A DNA stretch of 64,000 nt from an uncultured Microbulbifer sp. (GTDB lineage: Bacteria; Pseudomonadota; Gammaproteobacteria; Pseudomonadales; Cellvibrionaceae). The notes under the pieces are model-generated. The model saw only the letters and a program-made list of their open reading frames with translations. It made no database searches and was not told where the DNA came from. Location of the stretch: NCBI RefSeq assembly GCF_947498635.1, contig NZ_CANMKV010000002.1, forward strand, positions 1 through 64,000, given 5' to 3'. Shown piece after piece: positions 22,716-33,594 of the stretch. The translations under genes and the position numbers were made by a program. Position 1 is the stretch's first letter. Every line of letters starts with the position of its first letter.

Positions 22716-22750
22716 CGGACAGGGCGGACAGCGGACACTTTTCGCGGACA
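22716..22750. promoter_or_regulatory. CGGACA repeat cluster, candidate enhancer (UAS) for the NtrC-type regulator
   Basis: CGGACA occurs at 22716, 22725, 22732 and 22745, all in the same orientation, with a related TGGACA at 22646. The cluster is about 75-110 bp upstream of the sigma-54 promoter, the usual distance for activator binding. The match to the regulator encoded at 28275 is inferred. Confidence 0.5.
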
Positions 22751-22824
22751 CCCCAGTAAAACCTCGCCATCTTTCAAAAATTAAAAAAACTATATATTTC
22801 AACAGGTTAAACCATTTTCAAAAG

Positions 22825-22841
22825 TTGGCACAGAGCTTGCT
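22825..22841 (+). promoter_or_regulatory. Sigma-54 (-24/-12) promoter
   Basis: TTGGCAC-AGAGC-TTGCT matches the RpoN consensus TGGCAC-N5-TTGC with GG and GC separated by exactly 10 bp. Transcription would start near 22852, about 80 bp before the adaptor start. A sigma-54-dependent activator is encoded six genes downstream. Confidence 0.85.
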
Positions 22842-22933
22842 ATCTACCCGGAAAAACCAATTTTTTGGATTTGCATCCGAACAGAAAAGCTTTTGCATCC
22901 AAGTTGGGAAAGCAAAAGTATCGATACAGAGAA

Positions 22934-24226
22934 ATGGACAGCAAGATGATCAGAGACACTTCCAGGCAAGATACAAAAATAGAAGCAGCGCCACTGTGGA
23001 AGAACCCCAAAGCAATAAAAAGTACCTTGGCTCTCGGCTTCGCCGTTGCTTTTCTCACCTGGGGAATCAACGCTTGGCACAGCACGGGCTCAGTCGATCA
23101 CACCCTCTCGCTGTCGCGCATCAACATCGCCCAGGTCGAGCGCGGCAACCTGGTACGCGATCTAGTCGTACAAGGCAAAGTGATCGCCGCCAACAGCCCC
23201 ACCTTGTTCAGTCCAGCGCAGGGCATAGTGAAGTTTTCCGTAAAAGCCGGCGACAGCGTCAAAGCCGCCCAGAGACTCGCCTCGGTGGATAGCCCGGAGC
23301 TGTCCAGTCAGCTCGCCCAAGAGAAGGGCCAACTCAACCAGCTTTCAGTGCAACTGCAACGACAGAAAATTCAAGCCAAGCGCCAGCAGATGGAAAACCA
23401 GCAGAAGGCCGATCTGGCCGAGGTTAATCTCATCGCGGCCAAGCGGGAACTGAAGCGCTCGGAACTCTCCATGGAGAAACAGATTATCTCCCTGCTCGAT
23501 TTTGAAAGAAGCAAAGATGATATGTCCCGCGCCAAGCTGGAATACCGCCAGGCCGTACAAAATGCGGAGCTGGAAAAAGAATCCCTCACCTTTGAAACCC
23601 AGACACTGGAATTGCAGCTGTCCCAGCAACAGCTCCAGGTTGAAGAGCTCGAACGCCGCGTGCGCGAGCTCGACATTCTCTCTCCCGTAGATGGAACCAT
23701 TGGCAGCCTCGCGGTCACCCAGCGCAGCGCCGTCGCCGCTAACACACCGCTGATCACCGTCGTAGACCTCACCAGCTTCGAGCTGGAAGCCGCAGTCCCC
23801 GAAAACTATGCCGACGATCTGGGCCTGAATATGGCCGTAGCAATCAATTTGGGGGGCAGTGAGCTGCCCGGTGAAATTACCGCAATATCCCCGGAAGTGA
23901 TCAACAACCAGGTCATCGCCCGCGTGCGTTTTACCGAGGCACAACCACAGAACCTGCGTCAGAACCTGCGCCTCACCGCTCGCGTGCTGCTGGAGAACCG
24001 CAATAACGTATTGCTGGTAAAACGCGGCAGCTTTCTCGATCAGAGCGGGGGTCGCCATGTATTTCGCCTCAACGATGAACAACAGGCCGAGCGCGTTGCC
24101 ATCCAGGTCGGCGCACTGGGTTTAAGGCAGGTGGAGATCGTTTCCGGTTTGCAGGAGGGGGACCAGATCATTATCTCCGCCGCCGAAGAGCTGGAGAGCG
24201 CGCAACTGGTTGCCTTGAAGAAATAG
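22934..24226 (+). CDS. HlyD/MacA-type periplasmic adaptor
   Basis: A 430-residue membrane-fusion protein. One N-terminal membrane helix (STLALGFAVAFLTWGINAW) is followed by a split lipoyl domain, a long coiled coil (about residues 120-240, rich in Gln/Glu/Lys/Arg) and a beta-barrel with a final ligand-like domain. It would bridge the inner-membrane ABC transporter at 24316-27561 to an outer-membrane channel such as TolC, which is not encoded here. The ATG at 22934 is preferred to an upstream TTG (22865), which lies only a few codons after the predicted transcription start. It is the first gene behind the sigma-54 promoter. Confidence 0.85.
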   Translation: MDSKMIRDTSRQDTKIEAAPLWKNPKAIKSTLALGFAVAFLTWGINAWHSTGSVDHTLSLSRINIAQVERGNLVRDLVVQGKVIAANSPTLFSPAQGIVKFSVKAGDSVKAAQRLASVDSPELSSQLAQEKGQLNQLSVQLQRQKIQAKRQQMENQQKADLAEVNLIAAKRELKRSELSMEKQIISLLDFERSKDDMSRAKLEYRQAVQNAELEKESLTFETQTLELQLSQQQLQVEELERRVRELDILSPVDGTIGSLAVTQRSAVAANTPLITVVDLTSFELEAAVPENYADDLGLNMAVAINLGGSELPGEITAISPEVINNQVIARVRFTEAQPQNLRQNLRLTARVLLENRNNVLLVKRGSFLDQSGGRHVFRLNDEQQAERVAIQVGALGLRQVEIVSGLQEGDQIIISAAEELESAQLVALKK

Positions 24227-24315
24227 AGACACTCAATGACCGGCGGCTGTAGAAATTCTATGACTCCGCTAATGAAACAATTTAAAAATTCAGTGAAAAA
24301 ACAAGGAACATCGCC

Positions 24316-25017
24316 ATGCTTAAAATGCATAACGTTCGCAAGAGTTTCCGTACAGACACCATAGAAACCCACGCCCTGCGCGACTTCAGCCTGGAAGTGA
24401 AAGAGGGAGAGTTCGTCTCTGTCACCGGCCCCAGCGGCTCCGGTAAGACCACTTTTCTCAATATCGCAGGGTTATTGGAAACCCCAACCGGAGGACAATA
24501 CTTGCTGGATGGTGAAGATGTCAGCAACCTGAATGACCGCCAGCGCTCACGACTGCGCAATGAGAAAATTGGTTTTATTTTCCAGGGATTTAACCTGATC
24601 CCCGACCTGAATCTGTTCGACAATATCGATGTACCGCTGCGCTATCGCGGCTTCAATGCCAACGAGCGGCGCAAGCGTATCGAAAAAGTGCTGGAACAAG
24701 TGGGCCTGTCCGCCCGCGCCAAACATCTACCCGCACAATTATCCGGTGGACAACAACAGCGTATCGCTATCGCCCGCGCCCTGGCCGGCGAACCGCGCTT
24801 TCTGCTCGCCGATGAACCCACCGGTAATCTCGACTCCCTGATGGCACGCCAGGTTATGGAGCTATTGGAGTTTATTAACGAGTGGGGCACGACCATTGTG
24901 ATGGTTACCCACGATCCGGAACTGGCCCGTCGCGCACACCGAAATATTCAAATTGTGGATGGCCAGGTTTGCGATTTACGCGCAGTTCCCGCCCAGCCTG
25001 CTGCCGTTACCGTCTGA
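24316..25017 (+). CDS. MacB/LolD-type ABC transporter ATPase
   Basis: A 233-residue ATP-binding subunit. Walker A is GPSGSGKTT (about residues 39-47), the Q-loop region is GFIFQGFNLIPDLN, the signature is LSGGQQQR and Walker B is FLLADEPTGNLDS. The sequence groups with the LolD/MacB class, which power mechanotransmission-type exporters rather than classical pumps. It is followed after 12 bp by two FtsX-like permease genes, with which it forms the transporter. Confidence 0.95.
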   Translation: MLKMHNVRKSFRTDTIETHALRDFSLEVKEGEFVSVTGPSGSGKTTFLNIAGLLETPTGGQYLLDGEDVSNLNDRQRSRLRNEKIGFIFQGFNLIPDLNLFDNIDVPLRYRGFNANERRKRIEKVLEQVGLSARAKHLPAQLSGGQQQRIAIARALAGEPRFLLADEPTGNLDSLMARQVMELLEFINEWGTTIVMVTHDPELARRAHRNIQIVDGQVCDLRAVPAQPAAVTV

Positions 25018-25029
25018 GGAGTTGGCACA

Positions 25030-26343
25030 ATGCTTGGATACTATATATCTCTGGCCCTGCGCAGCCTGCGCGGTACGCCTATTCTCAGCGCTCTTATGAT
25101 CGCCGCTATCGCCGTTGGCGTGGGCGCATCTATGACCGTACTCACTCTCAACTATATGATGTCGCAAAATGCACTGAAACATAAGGACGATGTACTTTTC
25201 GCGGTGCAGCTTGATAGCTGGGATGTTAACAAGGCTGCGAACACGGCCAATGAAATTCCCTGGCAGCTGACTTATCGGGATGCGCAGGCGCTGCTGCGCT
25301 CAGAGATCCCCACTCGCCAGGTTGCCATGCACCGCTTCGGATTTACTGTAGAGCTGTTAAATTCCTCGATACGTCCTTTCACCGCATCAACTCGTGTTAC
25401 TACACGTGACTTTTTCTCTCTTTTTGACGTGCCCTTCCTCTACGGCGGAACTTGGGAAAGTGAAGCAGACGCTTCTCCAAGCCAAGTTGTCATTCTCTCT
25501 AAGTCCACCAATGAAAAACTGTTTTCCGGCGAGAACAGCGTAGGTAAAACTATTAGCCTAAACGGCGAACCCTTTACTGTGATTGGTGTTATCGACCACT
25601 GGGAACCCGCGCCCAAGGTTCACGACCTCAACAACGGTGACTTTGCTAAATCTGCAAATCTGTTTATACCGTTCGGCTTGCACAGAGAGTACGAAATTTA
25701 CAGCTGGGGCAACACCAACGGATGGGACAACAAAAGACCCAATGGCTACGAAGGCTTCCTGCAGGGTGAGTACATCTGGATTCAGTACTGGGTAGAGCTC
25801 AGTAGCAGTGCGCAGAAAGCGCAATATGAAGATTTTCTGAGTGCATACATTCAAGGGGAAAAGGCCCAGGGACGCTTCGAACGACCACTGAAATTTGCCT
25901 TGAGTAAGCCCTCTGAATGGTTGGTTCTTAACGAAGTGCTCAGTGATGATAACCGTGTACTGGGCTGGGTATCCCTGGCTTTTCTCTTGGTTTGCGTTAT
26001 TAATGCCGTAGCTCTACTGCTCGCCAAGTTTTTGCGTAAAGCCTCTGAAGCCGGTGTGCGTCGTGCTCTCGGTGCCAGTCGCAGCGCTATTTTTATTCAA
26101 CATTTAATTGAAAGTGCTGCAATTGGACTTATTGGAGGTATCGCAGGTATTTTCATCGCCGTCATGGGAATTAGCGGAATACGCTATCTGGCCATGGGGC
26201 AGATAGACACCGTGGCAACGATGGATTGGATAATGATGCTTGCCGCTATCGGTCTCGCCTTGATCGCCAGCCTGCTTGCTGGGTTCTATCCCGCCTGGCG
26301 CATCAGCCGCACCAACCCCTCTATATACTTAAAAACCCAGTGA
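25030..26343 (+). CDS. FtsX/MacB-type ABC permease, first subunit
   Basis: A 437-residue permease with the MacB topology: an N-terminal helix (TPILSALMIAAIAVGVGASM), a large periplasmic domain (about residues 45-310, with a MacB_PCD-like core) and three C-terminal helices. VRRALGASRSAIFIQHLIE is the cytoplasmic loop that touches the ATPase. It probably pairs with the following permease to form a heterodimer. GAGGAG lies before the ATG. Which molecules are handled is unknown; related systems export peptides, macrolides or lipoprotein cargo. Confidence 0.88.
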   Translation: MLGYYISLALRSLRGTPILSALMIAAIAVGVGASMTVLTLNYMMSQNALKHKDDVLFAVQLDSWDVNKAANTANEIPWQLTYRDAQALLRSEIPTRQVAMHRFGFTVELLNSSIRPFTASTRVTTRDFFSLFDVPFLYGGTWESEADASPSQVVILSKSTNEKLFSGENSVGKTISLNGEPFTVIGVIDHWEPAPKVHDLNNGDFAKSANLFIPFGLHREYEIYSWGNTNGWDNKRPNGYEGFLQGEYIWIQYWVELSSSAQKAQYEDFLSAYIQGEKAQGRFERPLKFALSKPSEWLVLNEVLSDDNRVLGWVSLAFLLVCVINAVALLLAKFLRKASEAGVRRALGASRSAIFIQHLIESAAIGLIGGIAGIFIAVMGISGIRYLAMGQIDTVATMDWIMMLAAIGLALIASLLAGFYPAWRISRTNPSIYLKTQ

Positions 26344-26352
26344 GGCCGAATC

Positions 26353-27561
26353 ATGCTCGAATTAAAACCCATGCTGTCCGCCCTCTGGCGCAACAAAGTC
26401 TCAGCCCTGTTAATCACCCTACAGCTGGCATTAACACTGGCAATCATCAGTAATATTGTTGTTATTGTGCAGGATCGAATTGAAAAAATAGAACGCCCTA
26501 CCGGTATTGCCGTAGAGGACATTATCGCCCTCAACTTTATGGCGATACCCCAGGACTACGATATGATCGGGGCAATCTCTGCCGACCTGGATTTGTTACG
26601 CGCACTTCCCGATGTCAAAGACGCTACAGTGACAAATCAAGTCCCTTTATCCCAGTCGGGATCGGCAGGTACTTACTATACCCAAGCAAACCAGGAAATC
26701 GGCGGAGAAAATTCAAACTACTACAATACTGATCCACATTTTATTAATACTCTGGGTCTCAAGTTAATAGCGGGCCGCAATTTCACCGATGCGGAAATTC
26801 AGTTCTCTGAACCCAATAAAAACCCGGAAATAGCCGTTGCCGTTGTTACCCAGCAGTTTGCCGAAAAGCTCTATCCTGGACAGGACCCGATTGGAAAACC
26901 TCTCTTTGATGGCAGCGACTCCAATCCCATAGAAATTATCGGTGTGGTTGAACGGCACCTGGGTGCTTGGGTAGATTGGTCAAATGCCGGTAATGTCGCC
27001 TTCTTCCCCTCAATTAAAAATACCCAGGACACAAATTACCTAATACGCACCGAGCCCGGCAAGCGCGATCAAGTATTGAAAACTTTAGTGCAGAAATTAT
27101 CCGAACGCGATCCGCAGAGAGTGATTAAGACTAAGGTACTTTCAGAGTATGTGGCTCGAAGTTATGCGCGCGACAACCTGATGGTTAAAGTATTATCTAT
27201 CGTTGCGGCCATGCTCAGCTTTATTGTGGCCCTCGGCATTGTCGGCCTGACCATTTTCTGGATTAACCAGCGCGCCAAGCAAATTGGTGTAAGGCGCGCA
27301 CTGGGTGCGACACGTAGTAACATCAGCCGTTATTTCCTGCTGGAAAACTGCCTGATCGCCGGTTTCGGCATTACCCTGGGTAGCGCTGCAGCATTAATTG
27401 CCAACCAATATATGGTAAGCGACTACTCTCAGCCGGCGCTACCACTGACGCCGCTAGCCATCTGTGCGTTTCTAGTATTAATCGTGAGCCTCGTTGCAGC
27501 TCTGGCACCTGCGCTGCGCGCCGCCAATATCTCCCCAGCAACTGCTACTCGGAGTGTTTAA
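26353..27561 (+). CDS. FtsX/MacB-type ABC permease, second subunit
   Basis: A 402-residue permease with the same four-helix plan as its neighbour: N-terminal helix (VSALLITLQLALTLAIISNIVVIV), periplasmic domain, three C-terminal helices and the coupling segment GVRRALGATRSNISRYFLLE. It starts 9 bp after the first permease. Sequence divergence from the first permease suggests an obligate heterodimer rather than redundancy. Confidence 0.88.
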   Translation: MLELKPMLSALWRNKVSALLITLQLALTLAIISNIVVIVQDRIEKIERPTGIAVEDIIALNFMAIPQDYDMIGAISADLDLLRALPDVKDATVTNQVPLSQSGSAGTYYTQANQEIGGENSNYYNTDPHFINTLGLKLIAGRNFTDAEIQFSEPNKNPEIAVAVVTQQFAEKLYPGQDPIGKPLFDGSDSNPIEIIGVVERHLGAWVDWSNAGNVAFFPSIKNTQDTNYLIRTEPGKRDQVLKTLVQKLSERDPQRVIKTKVLSEYVARSYARDNLMVKVLSIVAAMLSFIVALGIVGLTIFWINQRAKQIGVRRALGATRSNISRYFLLENCLIAGFGITLGSAAALIANQYMVSDYSQPALPLTPLAICAFLVLIVSLVAALAPALRAANISPATATRSV

Positions 27562-27631
27562 AAAACGCAACGAAGGATATTGAAAAGGCGGCTCTGCGAG
27601 GAGCCAGCCCAAAACCATACAGGTTATTTTT

Positions 27632-28165
27632 ATGCGCAAATATATTTTAGCAGTATGCTTCTCTACACTGTCGTCCTCCTTCAGCGTAGCGTTTGCTCAG
27701 GAGCACCCCGTCGTTGCCGGGCCCCAAGTCACAAAAGCGTTAGAAAAAGAAATCAGCGCTGTGGACGCACAGCTTTTTGATGCTGTCTTCAACAGCTGCG
27801 ACATTAACAAACTGAGTCAACTCGTAACCGAAGACTTTGAAATGTACCACGATAAGTGGGGAAAAACCGCAAGCTCAGCTCGCGAGTTCCTTGATGGTAT
27901 CAGCAGCATGTGTGAACGACAAAAATCCGGCAGCGATATCAAGGCTCGCCGCCAGTTAATCGCTAAAAGCGTAAAGATATTTCCAATGAATAGCTACGGC
28001 GCCATCCAAACTGGAACGCATAATTTTTATGGTATTCATGCCGACAACAAAGAAGTACTGCGTGAGAGCGGGCAGTTTACCCATCTCTGGCAAAAGGTAG
28101 ATGGACAATGGAGGCTCGCCAGGGTGCTGAGCTTTGACCACCAACCGGCCGGCAGTGGCCAGTAG
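27632..28165 (+). CDS. Secreted NTF2-like (DUF4440/SnoaL-type) protein
   Basis: A 177-residue protein with a signal peptide (MRKYILAVCFSTLSSSFSVAFAQE) and a mature cone-shaped NTF2-like domain: LFDAVFNSCDINKLSQLVTEDFEMYHDKWG, then SGQFTHLWQKVDGQWRLARVLSFDHQP. DUF4440-type proteins bind small molecules or act as minor enzymes; catalytic residues are not evident. Two Cys, one in FNSC and one in SSMC, may form a disulfide. It lies 70 bp after the second permease on the same strand, so a periplasmic role with the exporter is plausible but unproven. Confidence 0.72.
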   Translation: MRKYILAVCFSTLSSSFSVAFAQEHPVVAGPQVTKALEKEISAVDAQLFDAVFNSCDINKLSQLVTEDFEMYHDKWGKTASSAREFLDGISSMCERQKSGSDIKARRQLIAKSVKIFPMNSYGAIQTGTHNFYGIHADNKEVLRESGQFTHLWQKVDGQWRLARVLSFDHQPAGSGQ

Positions 28166-28245
28166 CGCCTAGAACTTTAGTTTGTCCCTAGGGGTACCTA
28201 TTACCCCTGCCGTAGTTCCCCCTCAATAGCCACTCATTGCATAAT

Positions 28246-28265
28246 GGCCAGCTTACAAGCTGGCC
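28246..28265. promoter_or_regulatory. Perfect hairpin just upstream of the response-regulator start
   Basis: GGCCAGCTT and AAGCTGGCC form a 9-bp stem with a 2-nt loop, ending 9 bp before the ATG at 28275. No Shine-Dalgarno sequence is visible, so the hairpin could modulate translation or be an operator. A second, weaker GGGGTA/TACCCC hairpin lies at 28191-28207. Confidence 0.4.
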
Positions 28266-28274
28266 CTAGACCCT

Positions 28275-29627
28275 ATGGATAAAATACTCATCATCGACGA
28301 TAACAGCGGTATCGTCTCAGCTCTCGAGATACTGCTGTCACTGCATGAGCTACAGCCTCTGTGCGCCATTACGCCCCAGGCTGGCCTACAGCTACTGCGA
28401 GAAAACAAGGATATCTGCCTGGTTATCCAGGATATGAATTTCACTGCGGATACCACCTCCGGAGAAGAGGGGCGCGAGCTGTTTTTCGCTATTCGCGAAA
28501 TAAATCCAGACCTGCCCATAATCTTACTCACGGCCTGGACCCAGTTGGAAATGGCAGTGGAGCTAGTCCGGGCCGGCGCTGCGGACTACCTAGGAAAACC
28601 CTGGGATGACAACAAACTGATCGCCACTATCAATAATCTGCTGGAACTGGGCGAGTTGCAAAAGCGCCAGCGAGCCTCCCAGCAACAAGCGATGAATGCC
28701 CGCAGCGCGTTACAGGAAAAATATGATCTGCGCGATATCATCTATCGCAGCGACAAAATGCAACAACTACTGGAAATGGCTACCCAGGTAGCCACATCCG
28801 ATGTCCCCGTTCTGATCACCGGGCCCAATGGCGCAGGAAAAGAAAAAATTGCCGAAATTGTGCAAGTCAACTCCCAGTTGCGCGACGGTCCCTTTGTCAA
28901 GGTCAATGTAGGTGCCCTACCGGAAGATTTGATGGAGGCAGAATTATTTGGCGCCGAGCCCGGCGCCTATACCGGTGCGGGTAACAGGGCCCGTGAGGGG
29001 CGTTTCGAGGCTGCCGATAACGGAACTCTATTCCTCGATGAGATCGGCGAGCTCTCTGCCAGCGGCCAGGTAAAATTATTACGCGTACTGCAAACCGGGG
29101 AGTTCCAACGCCTTGGCAGCAGCCAAACCCGTAAGGTTAAAGTGCGGGTTATCAGTGCCACCAATAGCGACCTGCCCAAGGCCATTGCCGAGGGTATCTT
29201 TCGCCAAGACCTGTTCTACCGCTTGAATGTAATTGAACTACGCCTACCCCCACTTTGTGAACGCCCCGAGGACATAGCTCCTCTGGCCATGAATTTTTTA
29301 CTCGAAAACAGCAATTCGAAAAAACTATCTCCCCAAGCCGTGACTGCCCTCACCCGTTACCTGTGGCCCGGCAATGTGCGCGAATTGCAGAACGTAATGC
29401 AGCGCGCTTCGGTACTTTGCCGCGAAGAAACTATTGATGAAAACTTGCTGGCCCTACCGGAACACACACAAATAGAAAAAGCAGATGTAAACTTCGAACC
29501 GAGCCGCGAACTCCTGCAACAAACCCTGACCAGCTGTAACGGCATTATCGCCCAGGCTGCCAGAGAGCTGGGTATGAGTCGCCAAGCACTGTATCGCCGA
29601 CTGGAAAAACACGGTATTCCCTATTGA
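28275..29627 (+). CDS. NtrC-family sigma-54-dependent response regulator
   Basis: A 450-residue response regulator. The receiver domain has acidic residues D8/D9, phospho-acceptor D53 in LVIQDMNF and the conserved Lys in YLGKPWDD. The AAA+ domain has Walker A GPNGAGKEK, the sigma-54 contact loop as GAYTGA (usually GAFTGA; Tyr occurs in natural activators) and Walker B TLFLDEIGEL. The C-terminus ends in a Fis-type helix-turn-helix (AQAARELGMSRQALYRRL). It should activate RpoN promoters when phosphorylated by the coupled kinase, most simply the promoter at 22825 for this same cluster. Confidence 0.94.
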   Translation: MDKILIIDDNSGIVSALEILLSLHELQPLCAITPQAGLQLLRENKDICLVIQDMNFTADTTSGEEGRELFFAIREINPDLPIILLTAWTQLEMAVELVRAGAADYLGKPWDDNKLIATINNLLELGELQKRQRASQQQAMNARSALQEKYDLRDIIYRSDKMQQLLEMATQVATSDVPVLITGPNGAGKEKIAEIVQVNSQLRDGPFVKVNVGALPEDLMEAELFGAEPGAYTGAGNRAREGRFEAADNGTLFLDEIGELSASGQVKLLRVLQTGEFQRLGSSQTRKVKVRVISATNSDLPKAIAEGIFRQDLFYRLNVIELRLPPLCERPEDIAPLAMNFLLENSNSKKLSPQAVTALTRYLWPGNVRELQNVMQRASVLCREETIDENLLALPEHTQIEKADVNFEPSRELLQQTLTSCNGIIAQAARELGMSRQALYRRLEKHGIPY

Positions 29628-30961
29628 TGTCTGAGTATTTTTCTCTGGAAGGGCGCATTCTTGCCTGCACCGGCCTGGCCCTGGCTGTTGGCACCACACT
29701 CCCCTGGCTAGGCATATATTTAGGATTAGGCCCCCGGCTATCCTGGATCGCAGGCCTTCTCCTGGGCGTTATCCTCATAATTGTTTTGATTCGCTTGGCA
29801 TTGAGTCCCCTAACCACCACTCTGAAATCCTTACAAAACGGATTACTCAATTTTCGCGATGGCGATTTCTCTATTTCACTAGTCCCCCCTCGGGATGTCG
29901 AGCTGCAACAAATCACAAATTTATACAACGAAATTGGGGAACACCTTAGACGCGAGCGCGCCCATATTTATCAACGAGAACTACTGCTTGATACCGTAAT
30001 ACAGAGCTCCCCACAGGCTTTAATTCTGGTGGATCAGAGCGAACATATTATTTATTCCAACAGCAGTGCCAAGAAATTGCTCAATGAAGGAAGGCCCATT
30101 CAGGGATTGCTGCTGAAAAAGCTACTACCGAATAGCCCCAAGGAAATTGCCAGTGCCATCGAGCACTGGGAAGACGGTCTGTTTAACTATTCCGATAGCA
30201 ATGGCACGCACTCCATGCACATCGGCAATAGTACTTTTGTGCTTAATGCGCATAAGCACCGCCTCATTGTTTTGCGTGAGATGACAAAAGAGCTCACCAG
30301 AGCCGAGGTTGAAGTATGGAAAAAAGTGATTCGCCTAATCAGCCACGAATTGAATAACTCTCTGGCGCCAATTTCATCATTGGCACATTCCGGTAAAATG
30401 CTCATTGCCAAACCAGATAAGAGCGCTGCACTGGAAAAGGTCTTCGATATTATCGCCGAGCGCTGCAAACACCTTACCGAATTTACTCAAGGCTACGCCA
30501 GCTTTGCCAAGCTGCCTCCCCCCAGCTGTCGTGAAGTTAACTGGCGAGAACTGATTGAACGTATAGCCCCCCTACAGGAATTCTCCTTAAAGGGTGGGCT
30601 GCCTGAGCACCCTGGCTATTTTGACCCGATACAAATTGAGCAGGCCCTACTCAATTTAATCAAAAATTCCCGAGAAGCGGGCTCCAACAGCTTAGATATA
30701 GAATTGGCGATTAGTACCGACGGTCTCGGCCAGAAACTGGTGATCACTGACCGTGGCTGCGGTATGAGTGAAAAAATTTTGCAGCAAGCACTTCTGCCAT
30801 TTTTCTCAACCAAAGAACAGGGGGTGGGGCTGGGACTGGCCCTATGCCGGGAAATTATTGATGCGCACGGAGGGCGCATTCAATTATTAAATCGAAACGG
30901 GGGCGGCCTGCAGATTACCCTTTGGCTACCCTGGGCAGCGGAACCCACCCCAAAGGGATAA
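29627..30961 (+). CDS. PAS-containing sensor histidine kinase (NtrB/NtrY-like)
   Basis: A 444-residue membrane kinase. Two N-terminal helices (about residues 10-55) with a short loop precede a HAMP-like linker, then a PAS domain (LLDTVIQSSPQALILVDQ...IIYSNSSA). The dimerisation/phosphoacceptor block carries His in LISHELNNSLAPISS. The ATPase domain follows: N-box NLIKNSREAG, G1 DRGCGMSE and G2 GVGLGLALCREI. The ATG overlaps the regulator stop by one base (TGATG), so the two are translationally coupled. There is little periplasmic sensing surface, so the signal may be membrane-derived or cytoplasmic. Confidence 0.9.
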   Translation: MSEYFSLEGRILACTGLALAVGTTLPWLGIYLGLGPRLSWIAGLLLGVILIIVLIRLALSPLTTTLKSLQNGLLNFRDGDFSISLVPPRDVELQQITNLYNEIGEHLRRERAHIYQRELLLDTVIQSSPQALILVDQSEHIIYSNSSAKKLLNEGRPIQGLLLKKLLPNSPKEIASAIEHWEDGLFNYSDSNGTHSMHIGNSTFVLNAHKHRLIVLREMTKELTRAEVEVWKKVIRLISHELNNSLAPISSLAHSGKMLIAKPDKSAALEKVFDIIAERCKHLTEFTQGYASFAKLPPPSCREVNWRELIERIAPLQEFSLKGGLPEHPGYFDPIQIEQALLNLIKNSREAGSNSLDIELAISTDGLGQKLVITDRGCGMSEKILQQALLPFFSTKEQGVGLGLALCREIIDAHGGRIQLLNRNGGGLQITLWLPWAAEPTPKG

Positions 30962-31272: not shown

Positions 31273-33594
31273 ATGCTTAAAATTAATAGTCTGCTGCCGG
31301 TCAGCGCACTGGCTTTCAGCCTGCTGGCTGCAAACAGCTACGCGGCCCCCTCGCCACAAGCCCAAAATAATCAAGTCGATTTGGTTATCGCCAACGAAGC
31401 CAAGCTGATCGATATGCTGAAACGCTCCGGGCGTATCAGCAAAAATGCAACTATCAGCGAAGCCGAGCGCACCCTGCATCAATTCCTGAAAGAGCGCGCC
31501 AGCCAAAACCAAAGCCTGCCTCAGGATTTGTCCAGTGAAACGGTACAAATGATGAAGCACGCCCGTGGCGGCGCTAAGCACCCGAAGCTGGGGAGAGGCA
31601 AAGGCAAGGGGCACTTTTTCCACCCCCACGGCCGCGCGCCGGGCCCCATTCAGCTTGAAAACTACGAAGGTGAGATGCGCACCGCTAAGGTGCTAGCCAT
31701 CCTGATGGACTTCCCCGATTTCCCCCACAACAGCATCGAGCCCGGGGAAACGGATATGTACTACGAGGACTACGCCGCGCAGCACTATGCCAACTTACTG
31801 TTCTCCCAGGAGGGTTTCACTGGCCCGCAAGGTGAAAACCTACTCTCCATGCAGCAGTTTTACTGGCAGCAGTCCGGCAACAGCTACTCCGTGGAGGGTG
31901 CGGTTGCCGGTTGGTACACGGCCAGCCAGCCAGCGGCCTTCTACGGCAACAATGAAGATGGCGATGCCCGCGCCCTAGTGCGTGAAGCACTGCAAGCCGC
32001 TGCGGCAGATCCCAGCGTTAACCTGTCCGACTTTGATATCGAAGACCGCTACGACCTGGATGGCGATGGGGATTTCTGGGAGGCCGATGGCCTTGTGGAC
32101 CACATCATGATCTTCCACTCCTCGGTGGGTGAAGAGGCCGGTGGCGGTCAGCTGGGAGAAGACGCCATCTGGGCGCACCGCTGGAATCTCGGCGATATTT
32201 TCTCCATTGCGGGAACCACGGCGGAAGTCGACTACTGGGGCGGAACCATGGCAGCCTACGACTACACCGTACAGCCGGCCGATGCCGCTGCCGGCGTTGT
32301 CAGCCATGAGTACGGCCACGATCTGGGCCTTCCCGATGAATACGATACCGATGGCTCTGGCCGCGGTGAGCCCATTTCTTCCTGGTCTGTGATGTCCAGC
32401 GGCAGCTGGGCCGGTATTATTCCCGGTTCCGAACCCACAGGTTTCTCAGCCTGGGCGAAGGAGTATTTACAGCACAACCACGGTGGTAACTGGCTGCATG
32501 GCGAGACCATCGCCCTCGAAGACATCCCCCGTCGAGGAGTCCGACTTCTGTTGGATGAGGCTGTACACAAGGGCACCAACAACGATGCTGTGCGTATAGA
32601 CCTGCCCCAGAAAAAAGTCGTCGTAACTGTACCCAGCAGTGGGGAATACGCCTACTTCAGTGGCAGTGACAACAACCTGCAGAACTCAATGGTGATCCCC
32701 GTCGATCTCAGCGACGCGCAGAGTGCCAGCCTGACCTTCAAGGCCTGGTATGACATTGAGCAAGACTGGGACTACGGTTCGGTCATGATTGACCTGGGCG
32801 AAGGCTTTATCTCCATCCCCGGAAACATCACCACCGAGAGCAATCCGAATCAGCAAAATCCAGGCAACGGTATCACCGGCAGCTCCGGTGGCTGGGTCGA
32901 TGCCGAGTTTGATCTAAGCGCCTTCGCCGGCCAGCAGTTCAACCTGGCAATCTCCTATACCACCGACGGCTATGAGGCTAACCCAGGTCTGTTCGCCGAT
33001 GACATCGCACTCAACATCAACGGACAAGCCACCCTCTTCGACGATGCGGAGAGTGAAGGCCAGTTTGACCTGGCGGGCTTCAGCCGCCACCCCGGCTACA
33101 ACCTGCACGACCACTACTACCTGCTGGAGTGGCGCACCCACCGCGGTGTGGACCAGGGCCTAGCGCACATCAATGTGGCCGGCCAACAGCTGACCTACAA
33201 CGAAGGGCTGCTAATTTGGTATGCCGACACCAGCCAGGACAATAACTGGGTTGGCATCCACCCCGGCGACGGTTTCCTCGGCGTAGTGGATGCGGATCAG
33301 CAGGTGCTGAAGTGGAGCGATGATTCTGTGGCCTCTACCCGCTACCAGATTCACGATGCCACCTTCGGTGTCGACTGGGCCGAGCAGCTGAACCTGGACC
33401 TCCTGGAAGAGTTCGGCATTACCATGACCGATATCCACAACCGTCCCCACCGGGTATTCAGTGATCGCAGAAGCTTTAGCAGCGATGAGATTCCCGATGC
33501 CGGCCGTGCAATCACACCTTACGGTCTGAAAGTACGTGTTGTTGCCCAGAGCAGGGATAAATCCGTAAGTAAAATATTCATCACTAAAAAGTGA
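31273..33594 (+). CDS. Secreted M6-family metalloprotease (immune inhibitor A-like)
   Basis: A 773-residue extracellular zinc protease. A signal peptide (MLKINSLLPVSALAFSLLAANSYA) is followed by a propeptide of roughly 100 residues, then the catalytic domain: the HExxH zinc motif is HEYGHDLGLPDEYD at about residues 345-358, the M6-type extended form. A Ca-binding-like DLDGDGDFWEADG (261-273) precedes it. The second half contains beta-sandwich modules (VIPVDLSDAQSASLTFKAWY, and GLFADDIALNINGQ), like the InhA C-terminal and MAM-type regions. InhA proteases degrade host or environmental proteins; in a marine bacterium protein scavenging is likely. It is monocistronic and ended by tandem hairpins. 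Confidence 0.9.
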   Translation: MLKINSLLPVSALAFSLLAANSYAAPSPQAQNNQVDLVIANEAKLIDMLKRSGRISKNATISEAERTLHQFLKERASQNQSLPQDLSSETVQMMKHARGGAKHPKLGRGKGKGHFFHPHGRAPGPIQLENYEGEMRTAKVLAILMDFPDFPHNSIEPGETDMYYEDYAAQHYANLLFSQEGFTGPQGENLLSMQQFYWQQSGNSYSVEGAVAGWYTASQPAAFYGNNEDGDARALVREALQAAAADPSVNLSDFDIEDRYDLDGDGDFWEADGLVDHIMIFHSSVGEEAGGGQLGEDAIWAHRWNLGDIFSIAGTTAEVDYWGGTMAAYDYTVQPADAAAGVVSHEYGHDLGLPDEYDTDGSGRGEPISSWSVMSSGSWAGIIPGSEPTGFSAWAKEYLQHNHGGNWLHGETIALEDIPRRGVRLLLDEAVHKGTNNDAVRIDLPQKKVVVTVPSSGEYAYFSGSDNNLQNSMVIPVDLSDAQSASLTFKAWYDIEQDWDYGSVMIDLGEGFISIPGNITTESNPNQQNPGNGITGSSGGWVDAEFDLSAFAGQQFNLAISYTTDGYEANPGLFADDIALNINGQATLFDDAESEGQFDLAGFSRHPGYNLHDHYYLLEWRTHRGVDQGLAHINVAGQQLTYNEGLLIWYADTSQDNNWVGIHPGDGFLGVVDADQQVLKWSDDSVASTRYQIHDATFGVDWAEQLNLDLLEEFGITMTDIHNRPHRVFSDRRSFSSDEIPDAGRAITPYGLKVRVVAQSRDKSVSKIFITKK

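Follow-up and report, generated by a model that had tools for sequence, protein, structure and literature searches.

A candidate self-contained sigma-54 export module behind a conserved enhancer and promoter in Microbulbifer

What controls an exporter that is encoded together with its own two-component system, and what might it carry? The question is raised by an operon at 22946-30961 (plus strand) of a 64 kb stretch of DNA from an uncultured Microbulbifer sp. (the window; the genome it belongs to comprises 4.52 Mb in 173 contigs). Its genes code, in order, for a periplasmic adaptor, an ATP-binding cassette (ABC) ATPase, permease 1, permease 2, a DUF4440 protein, an NtrC-type response regulator and a histidine kinase, with intergenic gaps of 9-109 bp (Table 1). 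Domain models returned the same families and the same HlyD-ABC-permease-permease-NTF2-regulator-kinase order as an earlier note made from the letters of this DNA. Exporter, regulator and kinase lie in one tight run behind a conserved putative enhancer, a site resembling those of integration host factor (IHF) and a predicted -24/-12 promoter. We are moderately confident that the locus is a self-contained, positively autoregulated, single-target export module with a sigma-54 circuit, probably serving the removal of an amphiphilic compound. The circuit is well supported by sequence, while the substrate and the mode of sensing are what we infer. Inverted TGTCCG/CGGACA dyads of relatives, the IHF-like site, an intramembrane kinase layout and the sign of a single target go beyond the earlier note.

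Promoter, enhancer and their conservation

The candidate promoter TTGGCACAGAGCTTGCT has its GG at 22827-22828 and its GC at 22839-22840 with 10 bp between them, and inspection agrees with the earlier reading of TTGGCAC-N5-TTGCT at 22825-22841. With zero mismatches, TGGCAC-N5-TTGCW matches the window at this element only and the whole genome five times, this element among them. The four CGGACA repeats, previously placed 75-110 bp upstream, start 109, 100, 93 and 80 bp 5' of 22825 and are presumed to be the binding site of the module's own regulator. Taken singly, CGGACA is not enriched in the window (35 observed, 28.6 expected). Close tandem copies (CGGACA-N1..14-CGGACA) give four matches in the genome, three of them at this enhancer and the fourth within an unrelated open reading frame. 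The best-conserved part of the enhancer is a 13-bp pair, GGACAC-N7-GGACAC. Inverted dyads, for example TGTCCG-N6-CGGACA, are present in several relatives, so that the direct repeats of the window look like a reduced form. The corresponding pattern TGTCC-N2..18-GGACA-N8-GGACA has zero matches in the Microbulbifer genome studied here, this enhancer included.

Homologous loci were taken from Microbulbifer genomes, two Pseudoalteromonas replicons and genomes of the same class and family. Permease 1 as query gave 20 loci, of which 18 are labelled Microbulbifer, one comes from a gammaproteobacterial metagenome-assembled genome and one (L025) is spurious. A set of 42 loci was defined by a regulator of >50% identity and a recognisable adaptor (18 Microbulbifer-like loci, the window included, and 24 others), and boxes, namely TGTCCG/CGGACA six-mers, were counted in 470 bp around and 5' of the adaptor start. 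Excluded before counting was L025 (a spurious 22-residue match); also left out were loci with an orthologous regulator but no adaptor match (L012, L020, L062, L078, L079, L096) and diverged loci without an adaptor match (L068, L069, L071, L072, L100, L102). At least two boxes are present at 39/42 loci, with a mean of 3.9 against 0.23 in control windows of the same loci, and the count is above every control window of its own locus in 38 of the 42. The -24/-12 score reaches at least 10/12 at 37/42 loci. Three loci were inspected but still scored as misses, namely L067 (box cluster about 600-660 bp upstream), L082 (one six-mer and three five-mers) and L093. A held-out set comprised 20 new loci, most of them from other genera (L127 and L128, at least, belong to the same genus as the discovery locus L065); with L125 and L130 excluded, 18 had an adaptor in the fetched stretch. 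All 18 have at least two boxes (controls: mean 0.20 over 892 windows) and 15 score at least 10 for the -24/-12 element, the misplaced one of L136 among them. The earlier note had named missing conservation of the RpoN box or of the repeats in homologous clusters as grounds for giving up its proposal; both are kept, in the held-out set too.

The geometry is conserved as well. The final two GGACA boxes start ~92 and ~79 bp before TTGG at most Microbulbifer loci; many non-Microbulbifer loci keep this spacing, and others show a ~20-bp shift or other arrangements. The IHF consensus WATCAANNNNTTR was used for scoring the region between boxes and promoter. Taken by itself, the window's match falls short of significance (p ~0.20); what is conserved is its position. 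All 18 Microbulbifer-like loci have their best match at -27 to -29 from TTGG, and 17/23 other loci have theirs at -28 to -30 or -16 to -18. A chance origin of the repeats was rejected on their tandem rarity, locus conservation, geometry and the held-out set.

Concerning specificity, the pattern GGACA-N8-GGACA-N52..80-TGGCAC has one match each in 42/48 Microbulbifer genomes. By eye comparison of coordinates, 41 of these 42 matches lie 4.7-8.3 kb 5' of the regulator on the same contig, and the remaining one (G455) is on a different contig from it. Ten further genomes of the family have a match, six at the locus and four elsewhere; since a reversed control pattern gave 7 matches in 144 genomes, the four off-locus matches equal chance expectation. 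In the genome studied here, the upstream region of this operon is the only one with tandem boxes. A wider regulon was considered and dropped for this genome, as none was seen with the exact patterns and the fourth tandem match falls inside a reading frame. The operon thus seems to be the regulator's only target, so a reporter on its promoter would read the pump's natural signal directly, offering a practical route to its substrate.

Between promoter and adaptor, at least one copy of TGCATCC is found in 16/18 Microbulbifer-like leaders and in 0/24 others. Paired copies occur in two places only in the genome studied here, and one copy is kept in G376 (L113), a locus without the sigma-54 promoter. 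These repeats possibly form a second, separate regulatory layer. A search of plasmid DNA with the promoter region gave no matches.

Regulator, kinase and the proposed circuit

The regulator has the parts expected of a sigma-54-dependent NtrC-family protein, namely a receiver with a phosphorylatable Asp (VIQDMNF), an AAA+ domain with GAYTGA and a Fis helix-turn-helix (HTH), and at sequence level the target operon carries a -24/-12 promoter with upstream activator sites. Across genera the predicted operator follows this regulator. Set against the 39/42 loci with an orthologous regulator, 0/6 loci with ~41%-identical regulators have two boxes or more, and four of these six reach a -24/-12 score of 10. 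The recognition helix reads SRQA/TRQA at loci with boxes, and SRSA or similar in the diverged group. The module's regulator likely uses the TGTCCG/CGGACA boxes, and the earlier proposal that it drives the operon to which it belongs gains in strength.

Further support comes from G376, in which regulator, kinase, boxes and promoter were lost together. This genome keeps the adaptor (67%), the ATPase (84%) and the permeases (72% and 63%) (L113, G376:C3:336500-352000). No regulator or kinase match was found in the fetched 15.5 kb, and no regulator genome-wide at E<=1e-85. Ahead of the adaptor both a box cluster and a good -24/-12 element are missing; a lone GGACA lies ~250 bp 5' of the adaptor and the sole loose promoter match, ~460 bp 5', is poor. 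Among 144 family genomes, regulator (>=50% identity) and permease are both present in 83, the regulator alone in 1, the permease alone in 3 and neither in 57 (Fisher p about 3e-35, shared ancestry ignored). G376 is the only true loss among the four odd genomes, the others being G403 (full module with a diverged permease), G419 (contig edge) and G510 (regulator in two frames). Orthologues of the regulator at this threshold occur in 48/48 Microbulbifer and 36/96 other family genomes. Wider sampling found them in 12/370 genomes of the class (E<=1e-85) and in 26/397 of the phylum (E<=1e-110), all of the same class, the genome studied here being counted in both.

That the boxes belong to another regulator, with the neighbouring two-component system acting elsewhere, is highly improbable in our judgement. 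It would suit the window, where the repeats are direct only; the genome encodes further NtrC-type regulators, the closest with 39% identity to that of the module, and the half-site is similar to the TGTC-N10-GACA boxes used by GlrR/QseF. Against it, the presence of the operator goes with that of the cis-encoded regulator and its recognition helix in different families, and G376, without the regulator, is also without the box cluster. GlrR itself was rejected as the identity of the regulator (equivalog model 291.8 bits, cut-off 763). Two side observations concern related regulators. The diverged group (~41% identity; L050, L068-L072, L097-L102) often adjoins exporter genes and differs in its recognition helix; the loop reads GAFTDA in 5 of its 12 members, and in the remaining 7 the loop pattern had no match. 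In Pseudoalteromonas xiamenensis (L049, 2684-3997), a second gene for a sigma-54-interacting regulator stands just 5' of the operon.

The ATG of the kinase gene (29627) overlaps the stop codon of the regulator by one base. Of the coupled PAS kinase described in the earlier note, the kinase stands; no PAS domain was detected by Pfam at E<=1e-3, though alignments to the AtoS, NtrB and PhoR models span the supposed region. In a simple hydropathy scan covering 59 kinases (from 60 loci, one of which gave no kinase match), the N-terminal hydrophobic segments fall in the first ~80 residues and leave almost no space for a periplasmic domain. At some loci the scan shows the pair as one merged segment, and many kinases have a further borderline hydrophobic segment near residues 114-145, in the PAS-like region. 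The predicted layout is that of the intramembrane-sensing type.

In the circuit that we favour, a signal in or at the inner membrane would switch on the kinase, which would phosphorylate the regulator. The regulator would then oligomerise on the TGTCCG/CGGACA boxes and, through looping that an IHF bend probably aids, open the sigma-54 promoter, raising the levels of pump, regulator and kinase together. Sensing may fall to the transporter itself, given that so little of the kinase lies in the periplasm. Flux sensing of this kind, in which the transporter would signal through the membrane to a two-helix kinase and on to an NtrC-type activator at a single dedicated sigma-54 enhancer, is put forward tentatively.

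Several observations weigh against the proposed module. The window enhancer has no TGTCC half-site and its dyad is incomplete, and the exact spacing pattern is not found in 6/48 Microbulbifer genomes. The IHF-like match reaches p<=0.05 in 9/41 loci only, its constant position being the evidence. In 9/24 non-Microbulbifer loci the -24/-12 score of the single locus is at chance (p > 0.1), no match to a loose promoter pattern lies between the boxes and the gene at L067 and L093, and in the held-out L136 the best element sits 5' of the boxes. As for the kinase, the held-out L124 has no match, and at L135 the assigned start gives no hydrophobic N-terminus. Exact patterns would overlook degenerate further targets. 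Finally, presence in 48/48 Microbulbifer genomes would suit a housekeeping role too.

The exporter and its candidate substrate

Table 1. Features of the export locus in the 64 kb window
Feature	Position	Strand	Basis
Putative enhancer, four CGGACA repeats (22716, 22725, 22732, 22745)	22716..22750	+	pattern counts and conservation
IHF-like site TTTCAACAGGTTA between enhancer and promoter	22797..22809	+	8/9 to WATCAANNNNTTR, position conserved
Predicted sigma-54 -24/-12 element TTGGCACAGAGCTTGCT	22825..22841	+	sequence match and conservation in relatives
Leader with two TGCATCC repeats	22872..22900	+	repeat counts in leaders and genome
HlyD/MacA-type periplasmic adaptor, 426 amino acids	22946..24226	+	domain/family models, structure matches
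ABC ATPase, LolD/MacB/DarD-like	24316..25017	+	domain/family models
Permease 1, MacB_PCD+FtsX	25030..26343	+	domain/family models, structure match
Permease 2, MacB_PCD+FtsX	26353..27561	+	domain/family models
Small protein, DUF4440/SnoaL-like domain (NTF2-like)	27632..28165	+	domain model; signal-peptide-like N-terminus by eye
NtrC-type response regulator: receiver, AAA+ with GAYTGA, Fis-type HTH (SRQALYRR)	28275..29627	+	domain models, motifs
Histidine kinase	29627..30961	+	domain/family models, hydropathy

The first gene was rightly assigned to the HlyD family in the earlier note, and its start has been corrected. Its reading frame is open from TTG 22865, and ATG 22946 (MIRDTS...) is most likely the start because MIR(D/N)TS opens the adaptor in 17/19 loci L006-L024, the remaining two being without that stretch of the gene. 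A long alpha-hairpin of ~60 residues per arm (H117-177/H183-241) is predicted in the adaptor. The structure model is poor overall (mean predicted local distance difference test, pLDDT, 54.1) and confident in the hairpin alone (block means 79-95); that of permease 1 is unusable (mean pLDDT 43.9). The best matches among solved structures are MacA for the adaptor and MacB for permease 1. On the ADOP duplicated-permease model, permease 1 aligns over the N-terminal half and permease 2 over the C-terminal half, both below the cut-off, and permease 2 also aligns to the C-terminal half of the DarB model, so that the two look like a split ADOP/DarB-type permease. The pump would thus be a split mechanotransmitting ABC exporter of MacB/ADOP type with a MacA-like adaptor. 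As the earlier note had it, no outer-membrane channel is encoded in the cluster; of the five TolC-family proteins in the genome (10 domain matches) none is in the 64 kb window, and the pump would borrow such a channel encoded elsewhere.

Variation in gene content was also recorded. Two permease matches stand close together in G465 and G473, pointing to a second permease copy, and the ~2.7 kb gap from the ATPase to the best permease match in L017 fits one as well. The DUF4440 gene, intact in 6/20 Microbulbifer-like loci, was rejected as a core part and is a recurring but optional accessory; L016 holds an apparent remnant, and in L093 the gene precedes the adaptor with the boxes ahead of it.

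What the pump carries can be approached through its neighbours. At 28 non-Microbulbifer loci, 203 flanking open reading frames (>=100 amino acids, in flanks of a few kb) contain a single group shared by three or more loci, and that one is present in three. A cargo gene next door was rejected because no neighbour is widely shared, and the earlier decision to assign no cargo holds. A SulP gene on the 5' side and, in several cases, an M6 protease on the 3' side recur at Microbulbifer-like loci and are taken as genus synteny, not cargo. In the window, an InhA-like M6 metalloprotease (31273-33594) lies directly 3' of the operon, as it does in several Microbulbifer relatives.

With no widely shared neighbour, an outside or general amphiphilic substrate is favoured over a dedicated product. 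The pump would most likely clear the inner membrane or periplasm of an amphiphilic compound, be it a peptide, a lipopeptide or something lipid-like, in a role of detoxification, tunable defence or self-protection. The same circuit might instead serve a pump that exports the cell's own product, a secondary metabolite or envelope lipid, as DarBCD does darobactin, with the kinase reporting its build-up. We regard this as unlikely, if worth keeping in mind. DarC, DarD and DarB are among the NCBIfam matches of adaptor, ATPase and permease 2, all under the curated equivalog cut-offs (DarC 87.1/450, DarD 271/375, DarB 42.1/700 bits), and a diverged version with a long permease lies inside a biosynthetic cluster in Rahnella. 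But the short flanks of the 28 loci have no widely shared gene, biosynthetic or otherwise, and presence in 48/48 Microbulbifer genomes is more uniform than is usual for secondary metabolism.

The Rahnella locus (L050, NC_015062.1 250216-269607, plasmid pRAHAQ01) combines a diverged exporter with an NtrC-type two-component system. One long permease gene replaces the two permeases, and the cluster encodes KASIII-type and phosphopantetheine-binding proteins, a P450, a MupA-type monooxygenase and a phosphopantetheinyl transferase. Diverged versions can thus sit among biosynthesis genes, which runs against the preference for an outside substrate.

Envelope maintenance is a further possibility, and one that we hold to be quite improbable. 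Here the MacB/FtsX-type pair would move lipids, lipoproteins or damaged membrane components in the manner of LolCDE, and the kinase would sense the membrane state directly. Strong matches of the ATPase to LolD and FtsE, a weak one of permease 1 to LolCE, the intramembrane kinase layout and the presence of the module throughout the genus would all suit such a role. A MacA-like adaptor with a long predicted hairpin, however, belongs with tripartite exporters and not with LolCDE, and 57/144 family genomes are without regulator and permease at the thresholds used, hence the function is dispensable.

Comparison with known systems

Enrichment of predicted sigma-54 promoters at genes of COG0577, the FtsX/MacB-type permeases, is reported for Gammaproteobacteria, Opitutia and Bacteroidia, and was called the first evidence of its kind (PMC12316311, 2025). 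The passages of that paper considered here name neither a dedicated regulator nor an operator for these transporters and describe neither their operon architecture nor a mode of sensing, and the paper's main text has zero occurrences of Microbulbifer and of HlyD. Relative to those passages, the dedicated regulator, the putative operator with its fixed geometry, the apparent single target and the predicted intramembrane kinase would be new. Among the articles listed in searches of open-access literature, none describes this operator or module in its title or the start of its abstract. The analysis supplies a widespread and apparently uncharacterised gammaproteobacterial exporter with a regulator of its own, a defined operator and a model of sensing that can be tested, and the module may explain part of the published enrichment.

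With MacAB-TolC the module shares a MacA-type adaptor with a long alpha-hairpin (predicted) and MacB_PCD+FtsX permeases. MacB, however, is an ATPase fused to one homodimeric permease, whereas here the ATPase is separate, the two permeases differ, and TolC is not in the cluster. The likeness to ADOP lies in the match of permeases 1 and 2 to the two halves of its model, and that to DarBCD in the alignment of the adaptor to DarC and of the ATPase to DarD. Unlike either, the module has a split permease and its own two-component system, and all scores stay under the curated cut-offs. GlrR/QseF is likewise an NtrC-type regulator, and its operator, TGTC-N10-GACA in the sections of the literature considered, resembles the dyads of some relatives (e.g., L009); the target here is an exporter operon.

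In its logic the module may parallel the Bce modules. BceB, of the FtsX family, is a single large permease with 10 transmembrane segments, and BceR is an OmpR-type regulator. The module resembles them in joining an FtsX-type transporter to a kinase of intramembrane-sensing layout (by hydropathy only); where they have one large BceB and an OmpR-type regulator, it has two shorter MacB-like permeases plus an adaptor, and a regulator of NtrC/sigma-54 type. In Bce modules, according to the passages considered, the two-component system has no sensing domain of its own and is proposed to track the cycling of the transporter (PMC10314905). We read the module as a Gram-negative, sigma-54 counterpart of the Bce modules, with a putative contact between kinase and transporter; if flux sensing is true, it would be the Bce logic rebuilt from unrelated regulatory parts.

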